Positions 1-16,700 of a DNA stretch of 64,000 bases are shown one piece after another; the stretch's first letter is position 1, and every line of letters starts with the position of its first letter. Source of the DNA: Methylotenera sp. Its GTDB lineage: Bacteria > Pseudomonadota > Gammaproteobacteria > Burkholderiales > Methylophilaceae. Where the stretch lies: NCBI RefSeq assembly GCF_030684185.1, contig NZ_JAUXOY010000027.1, forward strand, positions 186,001-250,000. The letters run 5' to 3'. The translations under genes and the position numbers were made by a program. Under the pieces are notes generated by a model. It searched no databases, had not been told where the DNA came from, and was given only the letters and a program-made list of their open reading frames with translations.

Positions 1-546
1 GCTGAATCCAGGTCGCAAGTAGAAAATATTCGTCAGATTGCCGCGCAAAATAATCAAACGCTAGTATTGAAGCCTTTATTTGGCTCCCAAGGGCTGGGTG
101 TTCGCAAGCTTTTAGCCAAAGAGTCCTTACCTGTGCCTATGCAACAGTTTGTAGATGGTGTTTATTATTTGCAGCAATTGATTGAAACGCCGATGATTGA
201 TGGAAATGTTGCACCGCATGATTACAGGGTATTTGTGATTGGTGGCAGAGTAGTTGCTGCCATGAAACGGGTCGGAAATACTTGGGTAAACAACATAGCC
301 GCAGGTGGTCGTTGTGAAAAAGTGGCTGAAAGTGAACAGTTATCGACGCTTGCGCTACAGGCAGCTTCAGCACTGGATATTGACTATTGTGGTGTTGATA
401 TTATTCAAGCGGCTGGTGGCCAATACTATGTGTTAGAAGTAAACAGTATTCCTGCTTGGAAAGGCTTGCAGAGCGTAGCTGAGATTAATATCGCGCAGTT
501 ATTGGTAGATGATTGCTTGAGAAAAATTGGAGAGATAACTAATTGA
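1..546 (+). CDS. RimK-like ATP-grasp ligase, C-terminal part (5' end outside window)
   Basis: The reading frame is open from base 1 without a start, so only the C-terminal ~181 residues are present. The visible part is the ATP-grasp core of the RimK/glutamate-ligase superfamily: a lysine and glycine-rich loop (LKPLFGSQGLGV), a DYRVFVIGG strand, the RVGNTW...NIAAGG loop, and the metal-binding end with GVDII and EVNSIPAWKG. Such enzymes join an amino acid to a carboxylate by way of an acyl phosphate. RimK-like proteins in H4MPT gene clusters resemble the glutamate ligases that add side-chain glutamates to methanopterin or methanofuran. The substrate here is inferred from the C1-cofactor genes nearby. 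The stop overlaps the next start as TTGA, indicating translational coupling. Confidence 0.8.
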   Translation, partial: AESRSQVENIRQIAAQNNQTLVLKPLFGSQGLGVRKLLAKESLPVPMQQFVDGVYYLQQLIETPMIDGNVAPHDYRVFVIGGRVVAAMKRVGNTWVNNIAAGGRCEKVAESEQLSTLALQAASALDIDYCGVDIIQAAGGQYYVLEVNSIPAWKGLQSVAEINIAQLLVDDCLRKIGEITN

Positions 547-1391
547 CTTCTGAACAACTGGTAATCGCGTACCAGAGCGCCTGCATGGCCGAGTTGCAAG
601 CCATCAAGCCAGGCAATGTACATGTTTTTGCAGATGGTCACGGCATGACGATATATGACTTTATCAAAAGTGCAGATATTTCTGCGGTTGAAATAACCAA
701 ACCAAACTTAAGTGTAGGCGAGCGGATATTCAGTGCGGTAGAAGCCACCCAAACAGCGGTAGGGTTGAATACCAATTTGGGCATTATTCTATTATGCGCA
801 CCGTTGATTCATGCCGCTTTATTGACTTCAGTTGATGGTAATCAAAGTTTACAGCAACGCTTGGTTCATACTTTAAACGAGCTTAGTGTTAATGACGGAT
901 TATTAACTGCTCGGGCGATTGTTCTGGCGAATCCGGCGGGTCTAGGCAGTTCGAGTGTGCATGATGTTCATAAGCAGCCCAATGTCACTTTGTTAGAGAT
1001 GATGGCTTCTGCGCAGCATAAGGACAGCATCGCCTGGCAATATGCCAATGCTTTTTCAGATGTTATAGGCTATGGTATGGCGCACTATAAAAAGGCCATG
1101 CACAAATGGCAAAATCAGGCTTGGGCGACTACAGCCCTATATTTAGGTTTTTTAACAAAGCAGTTAGATACGCATGTCATCCGAAAGCATGGCGAGGTAT
1201 TGGCTGTTGAACTTATGCATGAAGCGCATGAGGTTGAAGCCGCATATTGGGCAACTGACAACCCAAAATTAGCGCAAAAACAGTTACTGGCGTGGGATGC
1301 TTCACTTAAAGAGCGCAATATGAATCCTGGAACAAGTGCAGATTTGACTGTAGCCACTTTATTAGTCGATTATTTTGAGAGTCTTAGTTAG
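543..1391 (+). CDS. CitG/MdcB-like (triphosphoribosyl-dephospho-CoA synthase family) protein of the C1-cofactor gene set
   Basis: The 282-residue protein starts at a TTG overlapping the previous stop (TTGA). It shows CitG-family features: an N-terminal helix ending in AIKPGNVH, a central NLGIILLCAPL segment and a C-terminal NPGTSADLTVATLL motif. True CitG/MdcB make the 2'-(5''-triphosphoribosyl)-3'-dephospho-CoA prosthetic group of citrate or malonate lyase, but no lyase genes are visible. Homologues are known next to H4MPT-pathway genes in methylotrophs, where their role is unsettled. It may transfer or condense a nucleotide or phosphoribosyl unit during methanopterin or methylofuran synthesis; that role is inference. 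Family assignment is good, function open. Confidence 0.75.
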   Translation: MTSEQLVIAYQSACMAELQAIKPGNVHVFADGHGMTIYDFIKSADISAVEITKPNLSVGERIFSAVEATQTAVGLNTNLGIILLCAPLIHAALLTSVDGNQSLQQRLVHTLNELSVNDGLLTARAIVLANPAGLGSSSVHDVHKQPNVTLLEMMASAQHKDSIAWQYANAFSDVIGYGMAHYKKAMHKWQNQAWATTALYLGFLTKQLDTHVIRKHGEVLAVELMHEAHEVEAAYWATDNPKLAQKQLLAWDASLKERNMNPGTSADLTVATLLVDYFESLS

Positions 1392-1541: not shown

Positions 1542-2252
1542 ATGATGACAGATGTAAATAGAAAACAAAAAATAGCATTTTTAGAAGATGATTTGGCTTA
1601 TGCAGAAACAATCCAAGAATGGCTGAATGAAGCTAATTTTGAAGTTGACCACTTTGCCACAGGGTTGGATTTTTTACGTAAATTTCCTAATTCACAATAT
1701 GACCTCTGTATCTTCGATTGGACACTACCAGACATGGAGGGGCCAGATGTGATGGTGAGCATTAAGCTTCGATCAAATAAATTACCACCCATCATTTTCT
1801 TGACCGGTCGCAGTGAAGAAGATGACATTGTGCGGGTGATTGAATCTGGTGCTGATGATTACATTGTGAAGCCAGCCAGCCGCCAGATGCTAATGGTGCG
1901 CATTAACGCCTTACTTAGAAGAACCCAGCCTGAGTATACCAATGCCACAATATGTGATTTCGGTGGATTAAAGATTGATACCAAACAGCGCTTGGTATTG
2001 TTAGACGGTGAAGAGGTTAAGCTGACAGATAAAGAATTAGATTTAGCTTGGTATTTTTTAAGAAATGTAGGCGTTTTATTATCAAGAACTCACCTGATGC
2101 AGGTGGTGTGGGGCTCTACTGCAGATGTTGAAACGCGCAAGGTCGATGTGCATGTCAGTCACTTACGCACAAAACTTAAATTAACTCCCGAATTTGGCTG
2201 GAAACTATCTTCAATTTACCAGCAGGGATATCGTTTAGAGAGAGCTGAGTAA
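1542..2252 (+). CDS. OmpR/PhoB-type response regulator
   Basis: The 236-residue protein has an N-terminal receiver domain (about 10-125) and a C-terminal winged-helix DNA-binding domain (about 140-232). Receiver residues are intact: acidic pair D16/D17, phospho-acceptor D59 in IFDWTLPD, T88 in FLTGR and K110 in IVKPAS. The effector domain carries LTDKELDLAWYFLRN and the recognition-helix segment VDVHVSHLRTKL. It lies 6 bases before an exported LysM/FecR gene and upstream of a CHASE2 histidine kinase on the same strand, so these are the likely partners. An ATGATG doublet makes the start uncertain by one codon. Target genes cannot be read from the sequence. Confidence 0.9.
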   Translation: MMTDVNRKQKIAFLEDDLAYAETIQEWLNEANFEVDHFATGLDFLRKFPNSQYDLCIFDWTLPDMEGPDVMVSIKLRSNKLPPIIFLTGRSEEDDIVRVIESGADDYIVKPASRQMLMVRINALLRRTQPEYTNATICDFGGLKIDTKQRLVLLDGEEVKLTDKELDLAWYFLRNVGVLLSRTHLMQVVWGSTADVETRKVDVHVSHLRTKLKLTPEFGWKLSSIYQQGYRLERAE

Positions 2253-2258
2253 TTGCCA

Positions 2259-3599
2259 ATGAAATTTGCTACCTACTGTATTGGTATCTTGCTGATGGCT
2301 ATGAGTTTTTCCTCATTTGCCAATGTGACAAGGCCAGAAAATGTTAACCAGGAAGCCATTTGGTTATATACGGTTAACCAAAATGATTCTTTTGAAATTA
2401 TTTATAAAAAATATTTAAATAAACGTACAAATATTGCAGAATTAGCTAAATATAATCAGCATAAGCTGACTAAAAAATTGCAGCCTGGTCAAGTTATTAG
2501 CATTCCTGTTGAAATGTTAAAAAAAATACCTACTAGTGTACAAGTTTTGCTGGTGTATGGTGATGTGCTGGTTACAAGTGCGCTAGCCAACGAAAAGCGT
2601 AAAGCGAATAAGGGGGATTTTCTGACGCAAGGTGATGCATTGCAAACAGGTAAAAACAGCCTTGCAAAATTGTTGTTTGCAGATGGCTCGAATATGGATA
2701 TTCAACCAAATTCCAATTTAAGTATTCAGGCTAGTTATAAATATGTAGGTAAAGAAACTTATGTAACACATTTAAAACTAGTCAAAGGGCGCACAGAAGT
2801 TACTGCAAATCCAGAACATGTTGTGGGGAACACACTGCAAGTTGAAACTCCCTCAGCTATTGCCGCTGTGCGCGGTACGCAGTTTAGAGTAGGCGCTGAG
2901 GGTGACATTGCCTTGCAAGAAACTTTGGATGGCCAGGTAGCATTCAGTGCGGCAGAGAATGGCGTAGTACAGGAAGTTTTAATTGCCAAGGGTTATGGCA
3001 GTGTGGCAGAAAAAGGTAAAGCGCCTTCACCGCCTATTCAACTGCCCGATGCTCCTGATGTGAGTGCGTTATCGAAGCTAATTGAGAAAAATGTTGCCGA
3101 TTTTAATCTGCCTCAACAACAAGGTGTCGCGGTTTGGGTAAGCCAGTTAGCACTTGATGCAGAGTTTACACAAATTTTGAATGAGCAAATCACACCGTCA
3201 GGAAAATTATCATTTGCCGATTTAGCAGATGGTCAATACTACTTAAGAATACGAGCGCAAGATCAATATGGTTTGCAGGGGAGAGATGCTATACATGCTT
3301 TTAATGTTAAGGTGCGCCTGCCTGAGCCCGTGCTTGAGCTAATTGAACCGGCAGATGGCGCCGTGATTCCTCTTGCACCGACAGAGCTTAGTTGGACGCC
3401 AATTCCCGCTGCTAATAGTTATACCGTACAAATCGCGCGTGATACTCACTTTGTTGATATCGTTTTCGAACGACGTGTTTCTTTCGATAAGTTGACTATC
3501 AACCAATCGTTTGGCGCTGGGGAGTTTTATTGGCGTGTAGCCGTTTTATCTGACGGTAAGCCACAGAGATTTTCTGAAGTTAGAAAATTTTCGCGTTAA
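2259..3599 (+). CDS. Exported LysM-FecR domain protein, probable sensor partner
   Basis: I chose the ATG at 2259, which gives a clean signal peptide (about 1-21, MKFATYC to FSSFA); an in-frame TTG lies 6 bases upstream. After the signal comes a LysM-like domain (about 35-85, ending LQPGQVISIPVEM). A FecR-type beta domain follows (about 120-230, with GDFLTQGDALQTG, SNLSIQ and TPSAIAAVRGTQF). The C-terminal half has fibronectin-III-like strands (DGQYYLRIRAQDQYG; ADGAVIPLAPTELSW; GEFYWRVAVL). The protein should be periplasmic, LysM possibly binding peptidoglycan. FecR-domain proteins are often encoded with CHASE2 sensors, as here, so it probably presents or relays a periplasmic signal to the kinase. 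The ligand is unknown. Confidence 0.8.
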   Translation: MKFATYCIGILLMAMSFSSFANVTRPENVNQEAIWLYTVNQNDSFEIIYKKYLNKRTNIAELAKYNQHKLTKKLQPGQVISIPVEMLKKIPTSVQVLLVYGDVLVTSALANEKRKANKGDFLTQGDALQTGKNSLAKLLFADGSNMDIQPNSNLSIQASYKYVGKETYVTHLKLVKGRTEVTANPEHVVGNTLQVETPSAIAAVRGTQFRVGAEGDIALQETLDGQVAFSAAENGVVQEVLIAKGYGSVAEKGKAPSPPIQLPDAPDVSALSKLIEKNVADFNLPQQQGVAVWVSQLALDAEFTQILNEQITPSGKLSFADLADGQYYLRIRAQDQYGLQGRDAIHAFNVKVRLPEPVLELIEPADGAVIPLAPTELSWTPIPAANSYTVQIARDTHFVDIVFERRVSFDKLTINQSFGAGEFYWRVAVLSDGKPQRFSEVRKFSR

Positions 3600-3644
3600 C
3601 AATTCATTTAACATCGATTCTTTAATACCGTAGCAATTTTAAGT

Positions 3645-5600
3645 GTGTATTTCAAATTTCGTCAGCTAAGCGACCGTGTTTTTACAGCCATAATACTTGC
3701 GCTGATTGCAGTGTTATTGGCTTACAACGGCTTGCTTGTCAGGTTTGATAATCTTCATTACGATTTAGGTCGTTATCTAACTTTTAAGCCGGCTCCGGCA
3801 GATATTGTGATTGTTGCAATTGATGAGGCCAGCTTGCAGAGTATTGGCCGATGGCCATGGTCACGTATAGTGCATGCCGACTTGGTGAATAAGCTCAAGC
3901 AAGAGCAAGCCCGCGTCATAGGTTTGGATATTATTTTTTCTGAACCTGAACTGAGTAATGCTGAAGCCGACCTGGTATTAGCCAATGCGATTAAGCAGGC
4001 TGGAAATGTAGTCTTGCCAATTTTGTTTGAACAACCATACAAAGACTCTCCAGTTAAGCAGAGTGTACCAATTTCGGCCTATGCACAACATGCAGCTGCA
4101 ATGGGGAGTGTGCATGTGCCGCTGGATGCAGATGGTATTGCCCGTAGTATTTACTTGTGGGAGGGGCTGGGTGCGGCTCGACTGCCACATTTTTCGCAAG
4201 CGGTATTACAGGCAGCAAAAGAATTACCTAATAGTATTCATTTATTTCCAGCAAATACATCTAGCGAGAGTTCAACTACCTTAGTTTCACTGGATGAGCG
4301 TAAAGTTAAGTTTTTAGGCCCTCCCGGACACTTCCAGCGAATTTCGTATATCAATGCGTTAACAGGGGAATACCCCCTACATTTTTTTAAAGATAAAATC
4401 GTGCTGGTTGGTGCAACCGCAGTTGGGCTGGGAGATGTTTTGCCCACGCCGGTTTCAGCGCACATGCAACCTATGCCTGGCGTAGAGTTTCATGCTAATG
4501 CGATAGCGGCGATGCGAAATTCTGAATTAATTGTTAATGCGCCGTTTTGGCTAACCTGCTTATTAAGTATTATCTTGGCTGTAATACCGTTATTGTTTTT
4601 ACCAAAACTAAGCCCGTTAAAATCGTTACTTTCAATTGTTTTCTATTACTTTGTTGTCATGGGTATAGCGGTAGCAATGCCGCAATTCTTTAATATCTGG
4701 ATACCGCCAGCAGGCGCTTTAATTGCCATTTTGCTGGCATACCCAGTATGGAGTTGGCGTAAGCTTGAATCTGCACAGATTTATTTAGATAATGCCCTGC
4801 AAAATCTTCACGCGGATTTAGCTTTATTGGGTGTGAATAAAGAGGATTTGGAATATGCGGATGATCAAGACTTGATGCGGTCACGCATTTCAAATGTTCG
4901 GTTGGCATCGAAACATTTGCATGATTTGCATGGTGAAAGAAGAGATACTTTATCCTTTATTTCACATGACCTGCGTGCGCCATTAGGGGCTGCAATCATG
5001 CTGTTAAATGAAGGCGACAACAATAAAAACTTGCCACGCATCACTAATATGTTAAATGAATCGTTGGCGATGGCGGATAACTTTCTTCAATCATCTAGAG
5101 CTGAGATGGCAAATGCGGCGAAATTTCAGGATTTAGATTTAGTCAATTTGCTACAGCAAGCGTTGGATGATACGTATGCGGCTGCGCGTGCAAAAAAAGT
5201 GACCTTTAATACTAGTGTGCCAGAAGATAGTCTATGGCTTAAGGGTGATTTTGGCTTGTTACAACGTGCGGTGACGAATATTTTGATGAATGCTGTGAAG
5301 TATTCTCCAGAAGGTGCAGTTGTAACTGTGAGTTTAACTGAAAAAAATAATTTGGCTATATTGATTATTACTGATACTGGGCCAGGAATTTTGCCAGAAA
5401 AAATCACTAAATTATTTAAGCGATTTAGTCGCTTAGAAGGCGAGCAACAAGCCTCTGAGGGTACTGGATTGGGGTTATATTTTGTAGATGTGACCGTTAA
5501 AAAGCATGGAGGTAGCGTTACTGCAGCTAATGAATCGGGACTAGGCGCTGCTTTTACAATAATATTGCCGTTAGAAATATACTTAGGTGAAAAATACTAG
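3645..5600 (+). CDS. CHASE2-domain sensor histidine kinase
   Basis: The 651-residue kinase uses a GTG start 46 bases after the FecR gene. A transmembrane helix (about 15-35) is followed by a periplasmic CHASE2 domain (about 40-300; DIVIVAIDEASLQSIGRWPW is typical), then three closely spaced helices (about 305-375) and a short coiled-coil linker. The kinase core has an H-box SFISHDLRAPLGA with phospho-acceptor H441, an N-box NILMNAVKYSPEG and ATP-lid motifs DTGPGI and GTGLGLYFV. All catalytic boxes are intact. With the regulator at 1542 and the LysM/FecR protein it forms a complete three-gene signalling unit, probably one operon. Confidence 0.9.
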   Translation: MYFKFRQLSDRVFTAIILALIAVLLAYNGLLVRFDNLHYDLGRYLTFKPAPADIVIVAIDEASLQSIGRWPWSRIVHADLVNKLKQEQARVIGLDIIFSEPELSNAEADLVLANAIKQAGNVVLPILFEQPYKDSPVKQSVPISAYAQHAAAMGSVHVPLDADGIARSIYLWEGLGAARLPHFSQAVLQAAKELPNSIHLFPANTSSESSTTLVSLDERKVKFLGPPGHFQRISYINALTGEYPLHFFKDKIVLVGATAVGLGDVLPTPVSAHMQPMPGVEFHANAIAAMRNSELIVNAPFWLTCLLSIILAVIPLLFLPKLSPLKSLLSIVFYYFVVMGIAVAMPQFFNIWIPPAGALIAILLAYPVWSWRKLESAQIYLDNALQNLHADLALLGVNKEDLEYADDQDLMRSRISNVRLASKHLHDLHGERRDTLSFISHDLRAPLGAAIMLLNEGDNNKNLPRITNMLNESLAMADNFLQSSRAEMANAAKFQDLDLVNLLQQALDDTYAAARAKKVTFNTSVPEDSLWLKGDFGLLQRAVTNILMNAVKYSPEGAVVTVSLTEKNNLAILIITDTGPGILPEKITKLFKRFSRLEGEQQASEGTGLGLYFVDVTVKKHGGSVTAANESGLGAAFTIILPLEIYLGEKY

Positions 5601-5798: not shown

Positions 5799-6752
5799 AT
5801 GGCAAATTTATTAGACCAACTTAAAGCAATCACGACTATCGTGGCAGATACAGGTGATGTAGAAGCGATTAAAAGTGTTAAACCAGTAGATGCTACTACT
5901 AATCCATCATTAGTGTTAAAAGCAAGCCAATTGCCACAATACGCGCCATTGATTGAAACTGCTATTGCCTACGCAAAAGCTCAAGGCGGTACTAAAGCAC
6001 AACAAATTGATAATGCTGCAGACAAATTGGCTGTGCTGATTGGTACGGAAATTACCAAAGTAGTACCAGGCCGAATTTCTACTGAAGTTGATGCACGTTT
6101 ATCTTTCAACTTGGATGCTATGGTGGCTAAAGGCCGTAAATTGATTCAGTTATACCAGGATTCAGGTGTAAGTAAAGAGCGCGTGTTGATTAAGCTGGCT
6201 TCAACCTGGGAAGGTATCAAAGCGGGCGAAATCTTAGAAAAAGAAGGTATTCAGTGTAACCTGACATTGTTGTTCGGTTTTGGCCAAGCGCGTGCTTGTG
6301 CCGAAGCTGGCGTATTCTTGATTTCACCATTCGTTGGTCGTATTTTAGACTGGTACAAAGCTAAAAATCCAACAACAGAATACACGCAAGAAACAGATCC
6401 AGGCGTGGTTTCAGTACGTGCAATTTATGCATACTACAAAGAACATGGCTATAAAACTGTAGTGATGGGCGCTTCATTCCGTAACACTGGTGAATTGATT
6501 GCTTTAGCGGGTTGTGATCGCCTAACTGTTTCACCAAACTTGTTGCAAGATTTGGCTGCTACAGAAGGCACATTAGTTCAGGTATTGAAAGACACTGGCG
6601 CAACTAAAACAGCACCAGCGAAATTGACTGAAGAAGAGTTCCGTTTTGAATTAAACCAAGATGCAATGGCAACAGAAAAATTAGCAGAAGGAATTCGCGG
6701 CTTCGTCGCAGACCAAAACAAACTTGAAGCAGCTTTAAGCGAAAAACTATAA
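5799..6752 (+). CDS. tal: Transaldolase (TalB type)
   Basis: The 317-residue enzyme matches the length and sequence of the TalB class. It moves a dihydroxyacetone unit between sedoheptulose 7-phosphate and glyceraldehyde 3-phosphate. The Schiff-base lysine is K132 in [19 protein letters not shown] near the N-terminus and [12 protein letters not shown] are other family signatures. A strong ribosome site (AGGAGG) precedes the ATG. It stands just before the two formaldehyde-fixing RuMP genes, so its main job is probably regeneration of the ribulose 5-phosphate acceptor. A hairpin terminator follows, so it is probably mostly transcribed apart from hxlA. Confidence 0.97.
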
Positions 6753-6815
6753 ATCGTAAATTCTAATTTTGCAATTTGATTGTAATCTTGCAAGTTTAGA
6801 ATTGACATATATTTG

Positions 6816-6845
6816 CTGGACATTTACTATAAGTGTCCAGTTTTT
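6816..6845 (+). terminator. Rho-independent terminator after tal
   Basis: A 10-bp stem (CTGGACATTT with AAGTGTCCAG, one G-U pair) is followed by a T run. A TTGACA (6802-6807) and TACTAT (6825-6830) at 17-base spacing overlap this hairpin and could also be the hxlA promoter. Confidence 0.7.
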
Positions 6846-6972
6846 AGTGTAGTAAAAAATTGTAGTATTAAATTTCACATTTCAGTCTTTAACTGACTGT
6901 TTCGGAAGATTTATTACTAAATATAGCAATAACTTTGTAACATTCTAAAAAATTATTTAACGGAGAAACACC

Positions 6973-7605
6973 ATGGCATTAACCCAAATGGCTTTAGATT
7001 CATTAGATTTTGACGGTACAGTTGCTTTAGCAACTACAGTTGCACCACACGTTGATATTCTTGAAATTGGTACACCTTGCATTAAACACAACGGTATCAA
7101 ATTACTAGAAGTTTTACGTGCTAAATTCCCAAACAACAAAATCTTAGTAGACTTAAAAACAATGGATGCTGGTTTCTACGAAGCTGAGCCATTCTACAAA
7201 GCTGGTGCAGATATCTGTACAGTTTTAGGTTGTGCTGATATTGGTACAATCAAAGGCGTAATCGATGTTGCTAACAAATACGGCAAAAAAGCACAAGTTG
7301 ACTTGATCAACGTTGCTGATAAAGCTGCTAAAACTAAAGAAGTTGCTGCTGCTGGCGCTCACATCATTGGTGTTCACACTGGTTTAGATCAACAAGCTGC
7401 TGGTCAAACACCATTCACTGACTTAGCTTTGGTTGCTGCTTTGAACCTAGGCGTTGAAATCTCAGTTGCTGGTGGCGTTAAAGCTGCTACAACAGCTCAA
7501 GTACGTGATGCTGGCGCAACGATCATCGTTGCTGGTGCTGCTATCTACGGTGCTGCTGATCCAGCTGCTGCTGCTGCTGAAATCACAGCTATTGCTCACG
7601 CTTAA
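6973..7605 (+). CDS. hxlA: 3-hexulose-6-phosphate synthase
   Basis: The 210-residue TIM barrel belongs to the orotidine-5'-phosphate-decarboxylase superfamily. It condenses formaldehyde with ribulose 5-phosphate to D-arabino-3-hexulose 6-phosphate, the fixation step of the RuMP cycle. Signatures include LEIGTPCIKHNG, LVDLKTMDAG and phosphate-binding VAGGVK and IVAGAAIYG. A GGAGAA ribosome site lies 7 bases before the ATG. Codon choice is strongly restricted (GCT, GGT, AAA and GTT dominate), which fits very high expression. The gene has its own terminator and is separated from hxlB by a 143-base gap, so it can be expressed at a higher level than its partner. An alternative name is hps. Confidence 0.97.
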   Translation: MALTQMALDSLDFDGTVALATTVAPHVDILEIGTPCIKHNGIKLLEVLRAKFPNNKILVDLKTMDAGFYEAEPFYKAGADICTVLGCADIGTIKGVIDVANKYGKKAQVDLINVADKAAKTKEVAAAGAHIIGVHTGLDQQAAGQTPFTDLALVAALNLGVEISVAGGVKAATTAQVRDAGATIIVAGAAIYGAADPAAAAAEITAIAHA

Positions 7606-7662
7606 GTTAAGCTTGGTTTTAATTAACCAAACCCAATAAGAAATTATTGAGATGAGTAATTA

Positions 7663-7698
7663 AAAAATCCTGACTCAGCAATGGGTCGGGATTTTTTT
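7663..7698 (+). terminator. Terminator after hxlA
   Basis: A 15-bp stem with two G-U pairs (7663-7677 with 7682-7696) closes on a GCAA loop and runs into eight Ts. It should stop most hxlA transcripts before hxlB, giving differential expression of the two. Confidence 0.85.
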
Positions 7699-7748
7699 TA
7701 TAAAAAATTTCGAATTGAAATTACGGATAAACATTCAAGGAAAACATC

Positions 7749-8285
7749 ATGAGTCATCAAAAACTAATTTTAGATAGATTAACAACTATCCTGTCAGAAA
7801 CAGATAACAGCAACGCAGCTAAACTATTAAAGCTAGTTGACGAAGCGGGCCGTACATTTATTGGTGGTGCAGGTCGCTCTTTACTTGTATCACGCTTCTT
7901 TGCAATGCGTTTAGTTCACTCTGGCTACAATGTAAGTATGGTGGGTGAAGTAGTTACACCAGCCATTAAAGCGGGTGATTTGTTAATCTTGGTTTCAGGT
8001 TCAGGTGGTACAGAAACCTTGTTGCCGTTTGTGAAAAAAGCTAAATCAGTAGGTGCTAAATTAGCGGTAATTTCAATGAAAAAAACTTCACCTATGGCTG
8101 ATGTAGCTGACTTGACAATTCAAATTGGTAACGATAATAGCTTCCCATTAACAAAAGGTATGCCAATGGGTTCACAATTTGAACTTTCAACGCTAGTTTT
8201 CTTAGAAGCCGCGATTGCAGATTTAATTGAGGCGAAAGGTTTGACTGAAGAAGGTATGCGCGCTATACACGCTAACTTAGAGTAA
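7749..8285 (+). CDS. hxlB: 6-phospho-3-hexuloisomerase
   Basis: The 178-residue SIS-domain protein isomerises hexulose 6-phosphate to fructose 6-phosphate, the second RuMP step. Sugar-isomerase signatures are [17 protein letters not shown] near residue 40, ILVSGSGGTE and the C-terminal PMGSQFELSTLVFLEA. Length is normal for the family. An AAGGAAAAC ribosome site precedes the ATG. The gene lies directly downstream of hxlA in the same direction but beyond a terminator, so either it has its own promoter or it depends on read-through. Also named phi. Confidence 0.96.
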   Translation: MSHQKLILDRLTTILSETDNSNAAKLLKLVDEAGRTFIGGAGRSLLVSRFFAMRLVHSGYNVSMVGEVVTPAIKAGDLLILVSGSGGTETLLPFVKKAKSVGAKLAVISMKKTSPMADVADLTIQIGNDNSFPLTKGMPMGSQFELSTLVFLEAAIADLIEAKGLTEEGMRAIHANLE

Positions 8286-8307
8286 TTACAGTTTTAAACT
8301 TTGTCTG

Positions 8308-8334
8308 AATAAAGCCCGCTAGTCGGGCTTTATT
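8308..8334. terminator. Bidirectional terminator between hxlB and the HisA-like gene
   Basis: An AT-flanked GC stem (AATAAAGCCCG with CGGGCTTTATT around a TAGT centre) works in both directions between convergent genes. The stop codon of the minus-strand gene (8330-8332) lies inside its right arm. Confidence 0.8.
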
Positions 8335-9043
8335 TATTAGCCAGCGCCATTAACTGTTCAGACGATATTTGCTTGTGATGTAAAGAAGTGGCGATTAAAG
8401 CGCCATGTATACCCATTTCTTTGAGAGTCGTTAAATCATCCATATTCCTAACGCCCCCTGCAGCATACACATTAATACTTTTTGCGCGGCCAATAGTTTT
8501 TCTTAATAAATCTGCATTAATGCCCAAGTTTGTACCAACATTGCCTAGCGACATTACAATCACATCTTTTGGCCAGTATTCAATGTTAGCGAGTAATTCG
8601 GCTGGTCCTTGATAACCGAGCGGCATAAAGTCCAGTGATAATATAAAGTTTTCATCATGATGCCTGAGTGAGCAATAGTTGCCGATATGTGCAAAACTCT
8701 CGCTGCCTATCACTAGGCGAATATTAAGCTTTTGCCAAATACTCAAGTCGGTATTGTTGCTAATGCCAGCATCTAACCATAGTGTTAGTTGAGGGTAGCT
8801 TTGGACGATAGCTTCAATCACTTTAAAATTTGTATGATAACCATCTTCAGATTTTTGAATGGCATTCAAATCGGCAATATATAATTGGGTAAATGGATAA
8901 AGGGCTAGCAGTGCGGCTACTATAGCTAATGGTTCGCTCGATTCGGTAAGCTGGGATTGTATGGGCTTGTAAAGTTGCCGTTGCCCTTTTTTTGCATGTA
9001 CGACTTCACCATTTAATAAATCGATAACGGGTATAATTTTCAT
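8330..9043 (-). CDS. HisA-like TIM-barrel protein of the C1-cofactor cluster
   Basis: I place the start at the ATG at 9043, giving 237 residues beginning MKIIPVIDLLNGEVVHA, the HisA/HisF family start. Conserved parts are the first-strand aspartate (PVIDLL), DAGIS, VIGSES, LSLDF and AAGGVRNMDD. The protein is diverged from histidine-pathway HisA: the first phosphate loop GGGVR is reduced to DAGIS, and the C-terminal loop reads IATSLH instead of a VGxAL type. HisA-like proteins are known companions of H4MPT-pathway genes in methylotrophs and have no assigned reaction. No histidine genes are nearby. It is read divergently from the MfnD-like gene, the two ATG codons being one base apart. Confidence 0.75.
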   Translation of the reverse strand: MKIIPVIDLLNGEVVHAKKGQRQLYKPIQSQLTESSEPLAIVAALLALYPFTQLYIADLNAIQKSEDGYHTNFKVIEAIVQSYPQLTLWLDAGISNNTDLSIWQKLNIRLVIGSESFAHIGNYCSLRHHDENFILSLDFMPLGYQGPAELLANIEYWPKDVIVMSLGNVGTNLGINADLLRKTIGRAKSINVYAAGGVRNMDDLTTLKEMGIHGALIATSLHHKQISSEQLMALANK

Positions 9044-9044
9044 A

Positions 9045-10097
9045 ATGGCGACACCACTAAAACTGTTTGTATGCGAGTTTATCACTGGTGGCGGTTTAAG
9101 GGATGAGATAAGTGTTGCGCCATTGCCTGAATCGTTAGTGAAAGAAGGCACGCTAATGCGTGACGCTTTATTACGCGACTTAAGTGAGCTTGAGCAGTAT
9201 CGGCTGATTACCATGCACGATGCGCAACTGTCCCCATCAGCCTATGCCAGCAAAAGCTTCCCAGTCAATATCGGTAATTTCAAACAAGTGTTTAAGAAAG
9301 TGCTTAAGCAAGCGGATTTAGTTTGGCTTATTGCACCAGAAACTGATGGTATGCTGCTTGAGCTAACAGAACTTTGTTTGGCTGCCGAAGAAAAAGAAGA
9401 TGGCACTATTTTTTTGGGTTGTGGCTACGATTCAACCTTAGTTGGCACTAGTAAGTCTTTGAGTTTCGAAGCCTTGCAAGAAGCAAACATTCATACTTTG
9501 CCTGTATATTCTGGCGAAGATTTAATGCAACAAGACTATTTCAATGAGATGTTGCAATTAAATGTGAAGCAATGGCTTGCTAAACCTGAAGACGGTGCGG
9601 GCTGTGATGGTATACGATTGTTTGATTCTCTGCATGATTTAAGAAGCTGGCTGGAACAAGAAGATCATTACCTGCATTACTTTGCACAACCTTTTCAGCA
9701 GGGTACTTCGGCGAGTTTTTCGATGATTTGCCGTGATGGCAAAGGCTGGTTGTTGAGCTGTAATCAGCAACATATTGAATGTGATGGTAGTCAATTTAGG
9801 CTAACTGGCATCAGCGTAAGTGCTATGCATACTTATTGGCAGCGCTTTGATACACTCGCAAGAAAAATCGCTAAAATGATGCCAGATGCGTTAGGCTATG
9901 TAGGTGTGGATGTGATTATTGATACGGAGAATGACCAGATATTTGTGATAGATATCAACCCGCGCTTAACCAGTAGTTATGCAGGTTTGCGTGAGTCAAT
10001 AGGGCATAATCCTGCGCAAAGTATTCTGGAGTGCATATTAGAGCCACATTTTAAAATACCTGCTTTGCAAAGAAATATTGTCGAGATTAAATTTTGA
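9045..10097 (+). CDS. MfnD-like ATP-grasp ligase (methylofuran glutamate ligase candidate)
   Basis: The 350-residue protein opens with KLFVCEFITGGGL, the signature start of archaeal MfnD (tyramine-glutamate ligase) and its bacterial relatives. The ATP-grasp fold follows: AKPEDGAGCDGIRLF nucleotide loop, FAQPFQQGTSASFS and the metal-binding VGVDVIID...VIDINPRLTSSYAGL. Archaeal MfnD adds glutamate to tyramine during methanofuran synthesis, and bacterial methylofuran carries a polyglutamate side chain. The MfnF-like and MfnE-like neighbours support this route. The next gene overlaps its stop as TTGA. The ribosome site is weak. Family assignment is firm; the exact substrate in bacteria is inferred. 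Confidence 0.82.
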   Translation: MATPLKLFVCEFITGGGLRDEISVAPLPESLVKEGTLMRDALLRDLSELEQYRLITMHDAQLSPSAYASKSFPVNIGNFKQVFKKVLKQADLVWLIAPETDGMLLELTELCLAAEEKEDGTIFLGCGYDSTLVGTSKSLSFEALQEANIHTLPVYSGEDLMQQDYFNEMLQLNVKQWLAKPEDGAGCDGIRLFDSLHDLRSWLEQEDHYLHYFAQPFQQGTSASFSMICRDGKGWLLSCNQQHIECDGSQFRLTGISVSAMHTYWQRFDTLARKIAKMMPDALGYVGVDVIIDTENDQIFVIDINPRLTSSYAGLRESIGHNPAQSILECILEPHFKIPALQRNIVEIKF

Positions 10098-11143
10098 ATA
10101 AATCATCTATTATTGGCTGGGATATTGGCGGTGCACATCTAAAGGCTGTGCTGGTTGACGTTACAGGTAAGGTACTTGCAGCGAGCCAGGTATATTGTCC
10201 ATTGTGGCGTGGTTTGCATGAATTAGATTTGGCTGTAGATAAAGTGCTTAGTGATTTTAACGCCGATAAGCATGTTGTGACGATGACAGGGGAACTCGCT
10301 GATATTTTCCAAAATCGTCATGCGGGCGTGATGCAACTTGCACAGTTTTTACAAAAAAAACTAGCTGGGCAGGTTAAATATTATGCAGGTAAACAAGGTT
10401 TCGTTGCTCCTAATGAAGTCGAAATTAACACAGCTAACATTGCCTCAATGAACTGGCTGGCTAGCGTGCAATATCTTGCACAGAATGTGCAGCGTGCTTT
10501 GTTTTTGGATATTGGCAGCACCACTACTGATATTGCTTTAATTCATGATGGCAAGGCGCAAGTACTGGGGTTTAATGATGCGATACGTATGCAAAGTGAT
10601 GAATTGGTATACACGGGTGTTGTGCGTACACCCTTGATGGCTTTGGCACAAAAAATACCGTTCGCAGGGCAGCTTGTCAATGTGGCTGCAGAGCATTTTG
10701 CCACGACTGCTGATGTTTACATGCTGACAGGTGATTTACCCTTGGCTGATAATATAGCGGATACTGCTGATGGTGCAGAGAAGACTATAGAAGCCAGTGC
10801 GCGGCGTATAGCAAGGATGATAGGTTGTGATGCCAAAGGTGCGACAATCTCATCTTGGAAGAATTTAGCCTATGCGTTTAAATATGCGCAAATGAATCAG
10901 ATAAAACAAGCCATGTTACGTCAAATATCCTTGTTGGAAGATTGTCTTGACCTGAGCATTGTGGGTGCGGGGGCAGGAAGTTTCTTGGCGCATGAATTAG
11001 CGAATCAACTTGGCTTTCAGTACGAACCTGTTTCAAACTTTATTATTGCGGACAAGCTTAACGTCAATAATGATGAAACAATCAACATGGCAGCACTATG
11101 TTTTTCTTCCTATGCAGTAGCCAGTTTGGGAAATCAATGTTAA
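10094..11143 (+). CDS. MfnF-like / H4MPT-linked C1-pathway protein (hydantoinase-oxoprolinase fold)
   Basis: The 349-residue protein starts with TTG overlapping the previous stop. It has an actin-like ATPase fold with two phosphate loops, IIGWDIGGAHLKAVLVD at the N-terminus and LFLDIGSTTTDIALI near residue 140, plus SIVGAGAGSFLAHELA near the C-terminus. This matches the family described as H4MPT-linked C1-transfer proteins, whose archaeal member MfnF couples the aminomethylfuran diphosphate to gamma-glutamyltyramine in methanofuran synthesis. Its place between MfnD-like and, further on, MfnE-like genes fits the same pathway. The bacterial reaction is inferred. Confidence 0.82.
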   Translation: MNKSSIIGWDIGGAHLKAVLVDVTGKVLAASQVYCPLWRGLHELDLAVDKVLSDFNADKHVVTMTGELADIFQNRHAGVMQLAQFLQKKLAGQVKYYAGKQGFVAPNEVEINTANIASMNWLASVQYLAQNVQRALFLDIGSTTTDIALIHDGKAQVLGFNDAIRMQSDELVYTGVVRTPLMALAQKIPFAGQLVNVAAEHFATTADVYMLTGDLPLADNIADTADGAEKTIEASARRIARMIGCDAKGATISSWKNLAYAFKYAQMNQIKQAMLRQISLLEDCLDLSIVGAGAGSFLAHELANQLGFQYEPVSNFIIADKLNVNNDETINMAALCFSSYAVASLGNQC

Positions 11144-12534
11144 AGCACGAACTTAATTATCATCCAGACAGTTCGCGCTTGTTTGCTCAGATTGCGCATC
11201 AACCATGGGCAGTATTTTTGGACAGTGGTCGACCAGAAAGTGAATACGGTCGCTACGATATCATTGTGGTTGAGCCGTTCATTACGATCTGTACCACCGG
11301 GGAGGGTGCTAATACACAATCTGAAATTACTCAGAATGGGCAAGTCACCGTCAGCCTTGAAGACCCATTTGCAATTCTCAATAAGTTATTGGCACCCTAC
11401 AAAGCACCACAAAGCGTTTACCCGTTTTGTGGTGGTGCAGTGGGCTATTTTGCTTATGATTTAGGTCGCCAAATTGAGCATTTACCGGATATTTCTTTAA
11501 AAAATAATACGATACCGCACATGATGGTGGGTATTTATGATTGGGCAGTAGTGGTAGATCATCGTGAGAAAATCGCTTGTTTGGTATCTCATGGTTTTCA
11601 GCAATCCACCCATGATGACTGGGCTAATTTGTGTGCTATGTTTGATACGCCTAAAAATACACCTGAGTCTCAGTTTGAGTTAGCAAGTCCTATCTTAAGC
11701 AATATGAGTTTTAGCCAGTATACAAAAGCCTTTAATGCAATAAAGCGCTACATTACAGAAGGCGATTGTTATCAAGTCAATCTTGCGCAGCGTTTTTCGG
11801 CTCAAGTTCGTGGTAGTGGCTGGGTGGCTTACAACAAGCTTAGAGAAGTTAGCCCGGCACCTTTTATGGCATACATGAACTTTGGTACTTTGCAGGTGCT
11901 TTCTGGCTCACCAGAGAGATTTTTACAAATAGTCGGCAATCATGTCGAGACTCGCCCAATTAAGGGCACTAGGCCTAGATCAGATGACGTAGTCGTAGAT
12001 GAGCAGTTTGCAGAGGATTTGCAAGCGAGCCTGAAAGACAGATCTGAAAATTTGATGATAGTTGATTTACTACGTAACGATATTAGTAAAAACTGCGAAA
12101 TCGGTTCAGTAAAAGCGGATAAATTATTTATTTTGCAAAGCTTTGCCAATGTGCATCATTTGGTAAGCATCGTTACTGGGGTGTTGCAAAAGACTAAAAC
12201 TGCGATTGATTTATTACGTGGATGCTTTCCTGGAGGCTCAATTACTGGCGCGCCCAAGTTGAGAGCCATGCAAATTATTGAAGAACTTGAACCGCATAGG
12301 CGTGGTGTGTATTGTGGTGCCATTGGATATATTGGATTTGACGGCAACATGGATACCAATATAGCCATTCGTACAGCTGTTTTTGTTGCTAAGAATAAAA
12401 ATGAGGGTGAAATTAGTTTTTATGCTGGTGGCGGCATCGTTGCGGACTCAGTGCTGGAAAAAGAGTATGCTGAAACATTGGATAAAGCATCAAGTATGTT
12501 AAAAACCATGCAGTTTTTTACGCGTGCCGATTAA
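11137..12534 (+). CDS. pabB: Aminodeoxychorismate synthase component I
   Basis: I place the start at the ATG at 11137 (465 residues), preceded by TGGGA and overlapping the previous gene by 7 bases. The chorismate-binding domain fills the C-terminal two thirds. Markers are GDCYQVNLAQRF, the active-site segment RPIKGTRPRS, LLRNDISKNCEIGSV, PGGSITGAPK and the terminal AGGGIVADS. The PIKGTRPR lysine is typical of PabB rather than TrpE. With a glutamine amidotransferase subunit (not in view) it converts chorismate to 4-amino-4-deoxychorismate, the precursor of p-aminobenzoate. p-Aminobenzoate feeds both folate and the arylamine part of tetrahydromethanopterin, which explains its place in this cluster. 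No lyase domain is fused. Confidence 0.93.
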   Translation: MLKHELNYHPDSSRLFAQIAHQPWAVFLDSGRPESEYGRYDIIVVEPFITICTTGEGANTQSEITQNGQVTVSLEDPFAILNKLLAPYKAPQSVYPFCGGAVGYFAYDLGRQIEHLPDISLKNNTIPHMMVGIYDWAVVVDHREKIACLVSHGFQQSTHDDWANLCAMFDTPKNTPESQFELASPILSNMSFSQYTKAFNAIKRYITEGDCYQVNLAQRFSAQVRGSGWVAYNKLREVSPAPFMAYMNFGTLQVLSGSPERFLQIVGNHVETRPIKGTRPRSDDVVVDEQFAEDLQASLKDRSENLMIVDLLRNDISKNCEIGSVKADKLFILQSFANVHHLVSIVTGVLQKTKTAIDLLRGCFPGGSITGAPKLRAMQIIEELEPHRRGVYCGAIGYIGFDGNMDTNIAIRTAVFVAKNKNEGEISFYAGGGIVADSVLEKEYAETLDKASSMLKTMQFFTRAD

Positions 12535-12577
12535 GTTTTTTGTAAAAACGATAACAAAATCATGCTTAATCAATAAG

Positions 12578-12616
12578 TTTTATCAAAGTGTTTTATAAAA
12601 GTGTTTTATCAAAGTG
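12578..12616. repeat. Three tandem 13-base repeats
   Basis: The unit TTTTATCAAAGTG occurs at 12578-12590, 12591-12603 (one mismatch, C to A) and 12604-12616 without gaps. It lies in the gap between pabB and the MfnE-like gene, about 60 bases before the latter's start. It could be a protein-binding array or a slipped-strand repeat; a trinucleotide-like coding origin is excluded because the gap has no gene. Confidence 0.85.
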
Positions 12617-12678
12617 TAATTAATTTAGGTTTAACCTTAATCTGATACTTTGAAATATAGGTATCGGTGGATGACAAA

Positions 12679-13329
12679 ATGTGGATAGTAAAAATAGGTG
12701 GTAGTTTGCTTGGTTCACCTGAGCTGGTGAAGTGGTTGGAAATTTTAGTAAAATTCAGTGACGGTAAAATAATTATTGTGCCAGGTGGAGGTTTGTTTGC
12801 TAACTCAGTACGCGAGGCGCAGAAAGTTTCAAATGTAAGTGATGCTGTAGCCCATCAACTTGCTTTATTAGCAATGGACCAGTATGGAATAATGTTAGCA
12901 GGTATGAACTCTGCGCTAGTTACTGCGAGTAGTGAGCTTGAGATTGCCGAGCGTGGGTGGCAGCATCGCGGTATTGTCTGGCTGCCAAGTAAAATGGCTT
13001 TGGCAGACAGTAGCATTCCAAATAACTGGCATGTTACTTCTGATAGTTTAAGTGCTTGGCTGGCGAATAAGCTAGGAGCGGAACAACTGATATTAGTAAA
13101 GTCTAAGCCACTGATAACATATCAGACAGAAGCTCCAAGCAAGCTGCAAAATTTGGTTGATGATGAATTGATTGACAGACAATTCATCAATTTTATCCAA
13201 AGTGAAACATCGCAGAACAGCTATCAGGCTTGGGTATTGAACAAAGCGGATTATACTATTTTCGAGCAAGGATTTAGTTTGCAGAAACTTAAGGAAACTG
13301 GCTTGCTCATTAACTCTGCAGTTACATAA
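12679..13329 (+). CDS. MfnE-like amino-acid-kinase-family protein (methylofuran phosphokinase candidate)
   Basis: I chose the ATG at 12679, eight bases after a GGTGG ribosome site; a GTG lies four codons upstream. The 216-residue protein has the amino-acid-kinase core: MWIVKIGGSLLGS, IIIVPGGGLFANSVRE, and WHVTSDSLSAWLANKL for the substrate/ATP cleft. Its start and the SDAVAHQLALLAMDQYG stretch resemble archaeal MfnE, which phosphorylates aminomethylfuran phosphate to a diphosphate in methanofuran synthesis. Together with the MfnD-like and MfnF-like genes upstream this suggests the furan branch of methylofuran synthesis. Function in bacteria is inferred from the homology and clustering. Confidence 0.8.
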   Translation: MWIVKIGGSLLGSPELVKWLEILVKFSDGKIIIVPGGGLFANSVREAQKVSNVSDAVAHQLALLAMDQYGIMLAGMNSALVTASSELEIAERGWQHRGIVWLPSKMALADSSIPNNWHVTSDSLSAWLANKLGAEQLILVKSKPLITYQTEAPSKLQNLVDDELIDRQFINFIQSETSQNSYQAWVLNKADYTIFEQGFSLQKLKETGLLINSAVT

Positions 13330-13340
13330 AAGGCGAACTT

Positions 13341-13712
13341 ATGGCATCTAGTAGCGTTTATACCAACCAAGCTGTTGAAGATAAATTAAAGACTGAGTTA
13401 CCACATTGGTATTTAGAAAATGGCTGGATACGCCGTAAATATAAAACCAGCGGTTGGAAAGCCACACTTATGGTGGTGAATACAGTAGGGCATTTGGCCG
13501 AGGCGGCATGGCATCATCCAGATTTGACCGTGTCGTATGCGTTTGTGATTGTAAAGTTATGTACGCATGATGCAAAAAGTATTACAGATAAAGATTTTCA
13601 ATTGGCGGCTAAAATTGAGGCGGTTATTGGTTGGCAACCCGCGTTGGAAGGCGGCGCATTAACTGGAACTCCCAACGATGATGTGCGGTTTAAGTACATT
13701 AAATATGACTAG
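13341..13712 (+). CDS. Pterin-4a-carbinolamine dehydratase-like protein
   Basis: The 123-residue protein matches the PCD/DCoH fold: HLAEAAWHHPDLTVSYAFV aligns with the usual active-site HHPE region, and LCTHDAKSITDKDFQLA with the TLSTHDAGGLT segment. The N-terminal half (WYLENGWIRRKYKTSGW) corresponds to the W...I.R.F strand pair. Standard PCDs dehydrate 4a-hydroxytetrahydrobiopterin. Relatives in H4MPT clusters are thought to take part in methanopterin synthesis, but the step is not proven. The AAAGGCGAAC ribosome site and an 11-base gap after the MfnE-like gene indicate a shared transcript. Confidence 0.85.
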   Translation: MASSSVYTNQAVEDKLKTELPHWYLENGWIRRKYKTSGWKATLMVVNTVGHLAEAAWHHPDLTVSYAFVIVKLCTHDAKSITDKDFQLAAKIEAVIGWQPALEGGALTGTPNDDVRFKYIKYD

Positions 13713-13764
13713 CTACTGATTATTTTTAGCTTACTTTTTTAGTGGGTGCCGCTATCTTATAGCA

Positions 13765-16700
13765 TTAGTTTTGAATGTCTTTTTCAAACCGCCCGAAGTG
13801 CAACATAATCGTAGGCAGAATAAGCAGATTAAGTATGGTGGAAGTGATTAAACCACCCACAATGATGGTGGCCATTGGTCCTTCAATTTCACGCCCAGGC
13901 TGACCGCTAGCTATTGCGAGCGGCAATAAGCCAAGTGATGTGACTAAAGCTGTCATTAAAATGGATGGTAGTCGTTCAGAGGCGCCGCGAATACAAGTTT
14001 CTAAACCCCAAATGCAATTTTCTTCATCCACCAGATGTTGGTAATGCGACACCATCATAATGGAGTTGCGTAGGGTGATGCCAAATAACGTTACAAACCC
14101 GACCAGCGAGCCAATCGATATCCAGCCACCTGTTGCCATAATGGCGAGTACCCCACCAAATAACGCAAAAGGCAGGTTTGCAAATGTGAGCAATAAGTTA
14201 CGCAGGCGACCAAAAGCGATATAGAGCATCAGGAACACAGTGACACCTGCCAAAAGTGATTGTAAGATTAACGCCTCTCTTGATTTTGCATTGGCTTCCG
14301 CTGCACCAGTAAATTCTAAATATGCACCTTGCGATAATACAACGTCATTTTTTAATGTATTTTTAAGTTCGTCGGTAAATGATTCAATGTCTCGTCCACT
14401 TACATTTGCAGTGACGGTCTGAATGCGTTTTGCACCTGCATGGAGTATTTTAGAGCGTCCATTTTCCTGCGCAATATCAGCAACATCACGTAACCGCAGT
14501 AATTTTCCTTCAGGGTTAAACAATGGCAAACTGCCTGCCTCTTGCACATCATCGCGGGCTTCCAAATCAAGCAACACGCTGACACCAATCACGCGGTTTC
14601 CCTCATATACTTGCGTGATTGGTACGCCTTCGTGGGCTGCGCGAATGTTATCTAAAACGTCGGTTGGCTGTAAGCCTAATTGCGCCATTTTTTCTGGGCG
14701 TAGTCGTATCACCAGTTGAGGCGTTCCTGGCGGAGATTGAACTAATACATCTTTAGCGCCTTTGATACCTTTTACTACACTTGCGATTGCGTTGGCATCG
14801 CGGTCTAGCGCGTCTAAATCCTGACCGTAGATATTAATGACAGTTGATGCGGCGTAGCCGGAAATGGTTTCTTCTATACGTTCGGTTAAAAAGGTATTGA
14901 TGGCAAAATTTACCCCAATAAATCCAGCCTCAGCTATACCATCACCATCATCATCAATTTCTTCACCAGCTAACTCTTCTCGAATTCTGTTGAGGATGCG
15001 GCGTTGTTCTTCGCCTGAAACTGCACCTACTTCGATTTCAAATTCACTATAATGGGTACCAAATGAGTCTGCGCCATTGGGCGCGCGCCCAACCCATTGC
15101 ACTACCGATTTAACCCCTTTAATGTTACGAATGAGAGCAGAAACTCTTTTACCAATCCGCAATGACTCTTGCTCAGAAGTCCCTGGCACAGCGGTCATGT
15201 GCATGATGTAATGACCTTCATATAAAGCTGGGATGAACTGGCTTTTGAATAGGGGCAGGGTGCCCAGGCCGATAGCAATCACCAGAAAACTGGCCGCAAT
15301 AATAAATTTATATTGTTTTTCAATACGGTGTAGCACTTTAATGTACCATTTTTTGATGATACGAATCATCGGTGGATCTTCTGATTCCAGTTTAGCGTTA
15401 CCTAAAAGCAGATAACAAAGGGCCGGGGTGAGGGTGAGCGCAACCACTAATGAGGCGAGGATAGCGGCAATATAAGCAAAGCCTAGTGGCGCAAATAATT
15501 TACCGGCTACGCCACCTAGCGTGAGTAGTGGCAGAAATACCAATGCCACAATAATGGTGGCATAGACTACTGAGCTACGTACTTCCATTGATGCATTAAA
15601 CACTACACGATGCGTAGGTATGGGTTGCGATAACAAACGATTTTCACGTAGCCGTCTGAAAATATTTTCAGTATCAATAATGGCATCATCAACTACTTCA
15701 CCGAGAGCAATCGCTAAACCTCCCAGCACCATGATGTTAAGTCCGATATTGAAATAACTCATCACCACGATGGCTGTGAGTAATGAAAGCGGAATTGCCG
15801 TTGCGGAAATAAATGCAGTACGTACGTTGAATAAGAACAAAAACAGGATGGCGATGACTAACACGGAGCCAATTAAGATGTCTGTACGTACCCCTTGAAT
15901 GGCGACTTCGATAAAATTTGCAGGTCTAAACAGGCCTTCATGCAAGGTCACATTTTCTGCAGTTAAGCTAGGTTTTAGTTCTTGCAGTGCGCGCTCAATT
16001 GCAAGTGTCACGCCATGTGTATTGGCACCTAATTGACCTTGTACAGAAAGGTAAACCCCGGTTTCTTCGTTAATCGCAGCTGCGCTGATAGATGGTGCGG
16101 CACCTTCAACGACTTTACCTATGTCACCTAGCCGTATCGTTTGCCCGTTTTTGTGCAGCAATGTGACTTGCGCTAGTTTTTCAGGTGAAGTGGCTTGACC
16201 TTCAGTATTGATGACAATGCGCTGATTTTTATTTTCAATGTAGCCATTGCCGCGTACCCCGGTCGCTTTTTTTACTGCATCTTCAATTTGGATAAGTGAG
16301 ATGCCGTATCGAATCATTTTTTCAGGGTCGGCCTGTACCTGAAACTGCCGTACTTTTCCGCCGAACACATTTACGTCTGCCACACCTGGAATCGCCAATA
16401 AATGCGGCACAATGACCCAATCTACTAGCGTACGAACTTCCGTCAAGCTGCGTGTTTTTGAGGTTAAACCAACCCCGAGCACTGTGCTGGCAGAAGAAGT
16501 TAGCGGCGTAATATTGGGTGTGATGCCTTGTGGCAGCTTATTATTAAGCGTTGCCAAGCGCTCTGCTATGACTTGCCGATTACGATAAATGTCGGTACTT
16601 TCATCAAAAATGATAGTAACGATAGATAAACCAGGGATTGATTGCGAACGCATGCTTTCAATCCCCACCGTACCTGCAATACTAGTTTCTATAGATTGTG

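Follow-up and report, generated by a model that had tools for sequence, protein, structure and literature searches.

What is the function of the block of six genes at positions 8330-13712 of a 64,000-nucleotide stretch of Methylotenera sp. DNA, and does it belong to the synthesis of methylofuran (MYFR), of tetrahydromethanopterin (H4MPT) or of both? The stretch, hereafter the window, corresponds to C18:186001-250000 of a genome of 2.72 Mb in 30 contigs with a completeness of 99.98%. A preliminary description, made from the letters of the DNA, had proposed a bacterial methylofuran cluster mixed with H4MPT-precursor genes. We conclude that the block makes up the downstream half of an H4MPT/methylofuran island of archaeal type in a Methylotenera-like methylotroph, and we consider it highly probable that it serves both cofactors, with Orf1, Orf21 and Orf9 as enzymes of the MfnD, MfnE and MfnF types and Orf17 acting early. 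The set orf17, orf1, orf9 and pabB was found together with mptG, mtdB, orfY, mch, orf5 and orf7, and fhcD and mfnB were found elsewhere in the same genome.

All six open reading frames are present in the window, and profile searches matched each to the family first named for it, with small corrections of start positions. The gene orf1 (9045..10097, plus strand), an mfnD paralogue, encodes a putative ATP-grasp glutamate ligase that scored 91.9 bits with Pfam ATP-grasp_3 (PF02655; cut-off 23.2). Its best NCBIfam model was MfnD (NF040722; 85.2 bits, E 5e-24), followed by a model at 28.3 bits. Overlapping it by 4 bases, orf9 (10094..11143, plus strand) encodes a predicted MfnF-like condensing enzyme of the actin fold, which passed the curated cut-off of TIGR03123 (H4MPT-linked C1 protein; 328 bits against 244.1), scored 154.5 bits with archaeal MfnF (NF040623) and has a relative in the PDB (3c0b/3cet, E 3.2e-30). 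The product of orf21 (12667..13329, plus strand; the start may be 12667 or 12679) is a candidate MfnE-like kinase of the amino-acid-kinase fold, with 96.7 bits for MfnE (NF040622), 23.5 bits for the next model, argB, and 49.2 bits for AA_kinase (PF00696). The best NCBIfam match of each of the three was thus the family named or its bacterial sister model, and no unrelated family came close to it in score. The gene pabB (11140..12534, plus strand) encodes aminodeoxychorismate synthase I (TIGR00553, 363.8 bits, cut-off 328.4); its start at 11140, in a 4-base overlap with orf9, is more likely than one at 11098. No other TIGR00553 match in the genome passes the cut-off (the second, on C10, has 285.1 bits), so PabB probably supplies both folate and H4MPT synthesis. 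The pcd gene (13341..13712, plus strand) encodes a protein resembling pterin-4a-carbinolamine dehydratase (PCD; PF01329, 90.9 bits, cut-off 26). Finally, orf17, corrected to 8330..9043 on the minus strand, encodes a HisA-like (beta/alpha)8 barrel that matched TIGR00734 and PF00977, the latter with 92.8 bits (cut-off 23.6) when scanned as 8330-9040 with the first codon omitted. Its ATG lies 1 base from the ligase ATG at 9045 (window 9041-9047).

In order to assess the arrangement of these genes, we scanned the collection once, using 11 aligned Orf9 proteins as the query; all locus counts refer to the best 80 of 579 relatives, many of which end early at contig ends. The closest Orf9 relatives among these 80 were from Methylotenera metagenome-assembled genomes, at 69 and 68% identity, very near records possibly having been left out. 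Within the 80 loci we found orf17 in 66, orf1 in 73, pabB in 52, orf21 in 52 and pcd in 25. The order orf1 to orf9 was seen in 73/80, orf9 to pabB in 51/80, pabB to orf21 in 45/80 and orf21 directly followed by pcd in 23/80. A divergent orf17 adjoined orf1 in 63/80 loci, and adjoined orf9 in three loci where orf1 is missing (L056, L088 of Methylorubrum and L089 of Aurantimonas). Because this gene order recurs across the loci, which include those of Methylobacillus flagellatus L1B (L049) and Methylorubrum rhodinum (L088), the arrangement is not due to chance. A rough script puts the starts of orf17 and orf1 at most 60 bases apart, overlaps counted, in 51 of the 63 divergent pairs; in pairs as close as these, each promoter must fall inside the coding sequence of the other gene. 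A promoter scan of 8200-13800 gave 9 promoter-like sites, fewer than the mean of 15.6 in shuffles.

Alongside the homology, linkage, distribution and Orf17 fold and signature that we observed, we infer the substrate of each enzyme in the Methylotenera-like organism. Orf1 would join glutamate to tyramine (or tyrosine), Orf21 would put the second phosphate on aminomethylfuranmethanol phosphate, and Orf9 would condense the resulting diphosphate with glutamyl-tyramine to give MYFR-Glu1, whose glutamate chain MyfA and MyfB, encoded upstream, would lengthen. PabB would make the p-aminobenzoate that H4MPT requires, the PCD-like protein probably works on the pterin side, and Orf17 would take an early step, most likely in the furan branch. 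The activities of the archaeal Mfn enzymes have been demonstrated elsewhere. Published work, for which our statements refer to the excerpts available of each paper, names Orf9, Orf21 and Orf22 as homologues of MfnF, MfnE and MfnB and reports that deletion of orf17, orfY/myfA or orf5/myfB abolishes methylofuran, as measured by liquid chromatography-mass spectrometry (PMC8141765). The families proposed for a methylofuran cluster were right, and this genetics supports the reading, but the cluster is not unexplored, its gene list having been published (PMC4109929). The block does not by itself make up the route: the genes for MyfA and MyfB lie immediately upstream of it and that for MfnB on another contig.

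The distribution of the genes was determined in 249 Pseudomonadota genomes drawn by our tool and in 14 control genomes. Orf17 was detected with TIGR00734 at E 1e-19, a limit chosen after a score gap had been seen in 25 genomes and one that would miss divergent Orf17 such as that in two Paraburkholderia. Orf9, Orf17, FhcD and Mch occurred in an identical 12 of the 249 genomes, belonging to 8 genera, and MfnB in the same 12 and in G191. Three controls outside the pathway (Thermus composti, Deinobacterium chartae and Lactococcus lactis) also matched TIGR00734 at 1e-19; these matches probably come from HisA, and the limit does not discriminate cleanly beyond this sample. In G187, mch, orf5, orf7 and orf17 lie together, with orf9 and fhcD far off on the same contig; close linkage alone therefore does not account for the shared pattern. 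We then considered 25 Orf9-positive genomes, namely the 12 of the Pseudomonadota sample and 13 of named loci. Orf17 is present in 25/25, two of them divergent: it scored at least 81.9 bits in 23, the next rows, taken as HisA, start at 63.7 bits, and none of the 25 passes the TIGR00734 cut-off. The remaining two, both Paraburkholderia (G253 and G257), gave a divergent Orf17 as pieces within one frame. That of G253 lies beside a second orf1, orf9, orf21 and orf22, scored 197.4 bits with our own Orf17 profile and carries the full signature described below; in G257 only the pieces were seen, adjoining a second orf1. Orf1 is present in 14/25 (above 250 bits), the copy of G254 containing a stop codon.

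Two side observations concern these genomes. The match in G191 (L133:7129-8238; C12) is a fusion of an MfnB-like domain (PF04476, 190.2 bits) with FolB (PF02152, 75.9 bits), in a genome that gave no match for Orf9, Orf17 (1e-19), FhcD or Mch; MfnB there may act outside methylofuran synthesis or be a relic. The G253 genes form a second divergent methylofuran island (L134:2609-7975; G253:C180) with duf447, orf22, orf21, orf9, orf1 and a divergent orf17, and the other island of this genome (L080) has no orf17 within the stretch examined.

Several results weigh against a role of the block in methylofuran synthesis as proposed. The archaeal MfnD, MfnE and MfnF models are the best or second-best matches of the block proteins, with scores well below the equivalog cut-offs: Orf1 reaches 85.2 of the 400 bits required for MfnD, Orf9 154.5 of 520 for MfnF and Orf21 96.7 of 300 for MfnE. 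Because none reaches its cut-off, Orf1, Orf9 and Orf21 are graded, on these profiles, as homologues of the archaeal enzymes and not as proven equivalogs. Orf17 similarly stays below the cut-off of TIGR00734 (hisAF_rel; 113.2 against 179.85). Mch occurs in the same 12 genomes, so the distribution fits methylofuran or H4MPT alike. Lastly, we found no gene of the MfnA family PF00282 in the window genome despite the presence of Orf1.

The best surviving alternative is that the block serves H4MPT or another one-carbon cofactor alone and that the likeness to Mfn proteins is superficial. PabB, PCD, mptG and orf7 adjoin the block, Mch shares the 12 genomes as just given, and orf5 and orf9 were earlier annotated as H4MPT biosynthesis genes (PMC5023235). 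However, the orf17 deletion in M. extorquens lost methylofuran and kept methenyl-dH4MPT, showed no MYFR-Glu intermediate and was complemented (PMC8141765). The best matches of the block proteins are also MfnD, MfnE and MfnF or the sister model TIGR03123, and Haloferax volcanii, the only one of the genomes (1 of 14 controls, and a single genome) that separates the two cofactors, has Mch and gave no match for Orf9, FhcD, MfnB or TIGR00734 (1e-19). We therefore regard this alternative as very improbable and retain the assignment of the block to an island for both cofactors.

A second question is whether the ligase at 9045-10097 is the MfnD paralogue Orf1 or instead MyfA (OrfY), as both proteins are of the ATP-grasp_3 family and both resemble MfnD. 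A second ATP-grasp gene (L004:17055-18146), which we label orfY by position, lies upstream between mch and a gene that we take to be mtdB from its position, the profile searches having assigned its product to no specific family. With MfnD the second ATP-grasp protein scored 32.6 bits, compared to 85.2 for the window ligase. Its place is that of OrfY in Methyloversatilis (PMC5023235), and the Orf1 paralogue has been termed 'even more similar to MfnD' (PMC8141765), mfnD being 'also known as orf1' (PMC5020050). Methylorubrum (L088) retains the copy between mtdB and mch but lacks the one between orf17 and orf9, the pattern published for orf1/mfnD (PMC5020050). Since the upstream gene stands in the OrfY place and has the lower MfnD score, we read it as MyfA and take the window ligase to be Orf1, an accessory MfnD paralogue; the reverse assignment has hardly any probability left.

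Orf17 has a fold like that of HisA, and two of the aspartates of HisA align with D8 and D138 of Orf17, which also shares the C-terminal GG site. Three aspartates are taken as the catalytic ones of HisA, with the help of titles of mutant records, and MJ0703 is presumably a member of TIGR00734. Orf17 does not keep all three of these aspartates: that of the HisA RDG motif is replaced by V (66) or I (5) in 71/71 Orf17 rows, comprising 62 distinct sequences. Orf17 has in addition an invariant D91 and E115, which fall in the stretches matching HisA GGGIR and GTA, where the first phosphate pocket of HisA lies, as placed by sequence alignment and the DSSP strands of a model. With D8 and D138 kept, Val or Ile at the third Asp and D91 and E115 at the first phosphate pocket, the alignment suggests a substrate of the furan branch that carries a single phosphate and perhaps an amine. 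As a tentative proposal, which we hold as possible but doubtful, Orf17 would be a new HisA-fold enzyme of the furan branch in which D8 and D138 act, one phosphate site remains, and D91 and E115 bind the amine or polar end of aminomethylfuranmethanol phosphate or a precursor; this would be an unrecognised step between MfnB and MfnE, perhaps common to bacteria and archaea. That Orf17 is merely a second HisA (ProFAR isomerase) we consider very improbable, since, in spite of the common fold, two aspartates and GG site, it differs from HisA/PriA phosphoribosyl isomerases in the RDG position and in the invariant Asp and Glu of the first phosphate pocket, two other full PF00977 proteins on C27 (281.6 and 272.4 bits) are read as HisF and HisA, and methylofuran synthesis needs it (PMC8141765). 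The HisA-like barrel had thus been placed in the right family, and it is more than a neighbour, since M. extorquens requires its gene for methylofuran (PMC8141765). The available excerpts of that paper call the role of Orf17 'still unclear', and no title or abstract assigning Orf17 was found in the open-access literature on methylofuran and Orf17, a search outside which most subscription papers lie.

PF00282 is the Pfam family of MfnA and also of other decarboxylases, and E. coli matches it. Among the 25 Orf9-positive genomes it is absent from 4/14 with Orf1 (G000, the window genome, G258, G260 and G261) and present in 3/11 lacking Orf1 (G123, G167 and G187), which rules out a strict co-occurrence of PF00282 and Orf1. 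The tyramine and tyrosine forms are therefore not callable from the genes. The Betaproteobacteria examined in PMC8141765 all have the tyramine form, and the excerpts of the same paper describe MfnC as unidentified. We searched for MfnC by clustering the unassigned families that recur across the 80 loci; no linked aminotransferase was seen when representatives of clusters with at least 5 loci were read by eye, with no family search on the representatives and with one mixed cluster, whose 174 ORFs include 66 of orf17, left undivided.

The closest known system is the Methylophilaceae island of Methylobacillus flagellatus (L049), with the same genes in the same order and orientation: orf7, tal, hps, hpi, divergent orf17, orf1, orf9, pabB, orf21 and pcd. 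The sequences have diverged, and the L1B genome has a PF00282 gene whereas none was found in the window genome. The list published for Methylophilaceae contains fhcABCD, mptG, mtdB, orfY, mch, orf5, 7, 17, 1, 9, pabB, orf22, 19, 20 and afp; orf21 and pcd do not appear in its available part (PMC4109929). The block is thus a Methylotenera-like copy of an island already described, not a new one. Unlike archaeal methanofuran, bacterial methylofuran has a long branched polyglutamate chain made by MyfA and MyfB (PMC8141765).

The stretch 5' of the window (L004) holds mptG (TIGR00144, 193.2 bits, over the cut-off), the mtdB-like gene, the second ATP-grasp gene, mch (TIGR03120, 402.1 bits, over the cut-off) and the start of orf5/myfB (NF040720, 149.7 bits, under the cut-off). 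The 3' part of orf5/myfB, a RimK-like polyglutamate ligase (PF08443, 82.9 bits), occupies 1..546 of the window on the plus strand and is followed by orf7 (543..1391, plus strand), encoding a CitG-like protein of the H4MPT island (PF01874, 215.6 bits; in 47/80 loci). Orf7 is far below the CitG and MdcB equivalog cut-offs; by analogy, its part in H4MPT synthesis might be the transfer of a phosphoribosyl group. MfnB is encoded on another contig (C16:51396-52055, 227.2 bits), with DUF447 and a dihydropteroate-synthase-like protein, and FhcD at C16:110061-110942 (453 bits). Between the two island halves, at 1542-5600, we observed genes named by eye from their translations: a response regulator (1542-2252), a FecR/LysM-like protein (2253-3599) and a CHASE2-like sensor histidine kinase (3645-5600). 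Directly 5' of the block, at 5799-8285, are transaldolase (tal), hexulose-phosphate synthase (hps) and its isomerase (hpi), the latter two by family match; their linkage to the island has already been reported in Methylophilaceae (PMC4109929).

As the island is already in the literature and this cluster one more copy of it, its interest rests mainly on Orf17. The island frames three questions, namely the step taken by Orf17, the identity of MfnC and the source of tyramine in strains lacking MfnA, and for the first of these the conserved Orf17 signature gives a concrete handle on function.

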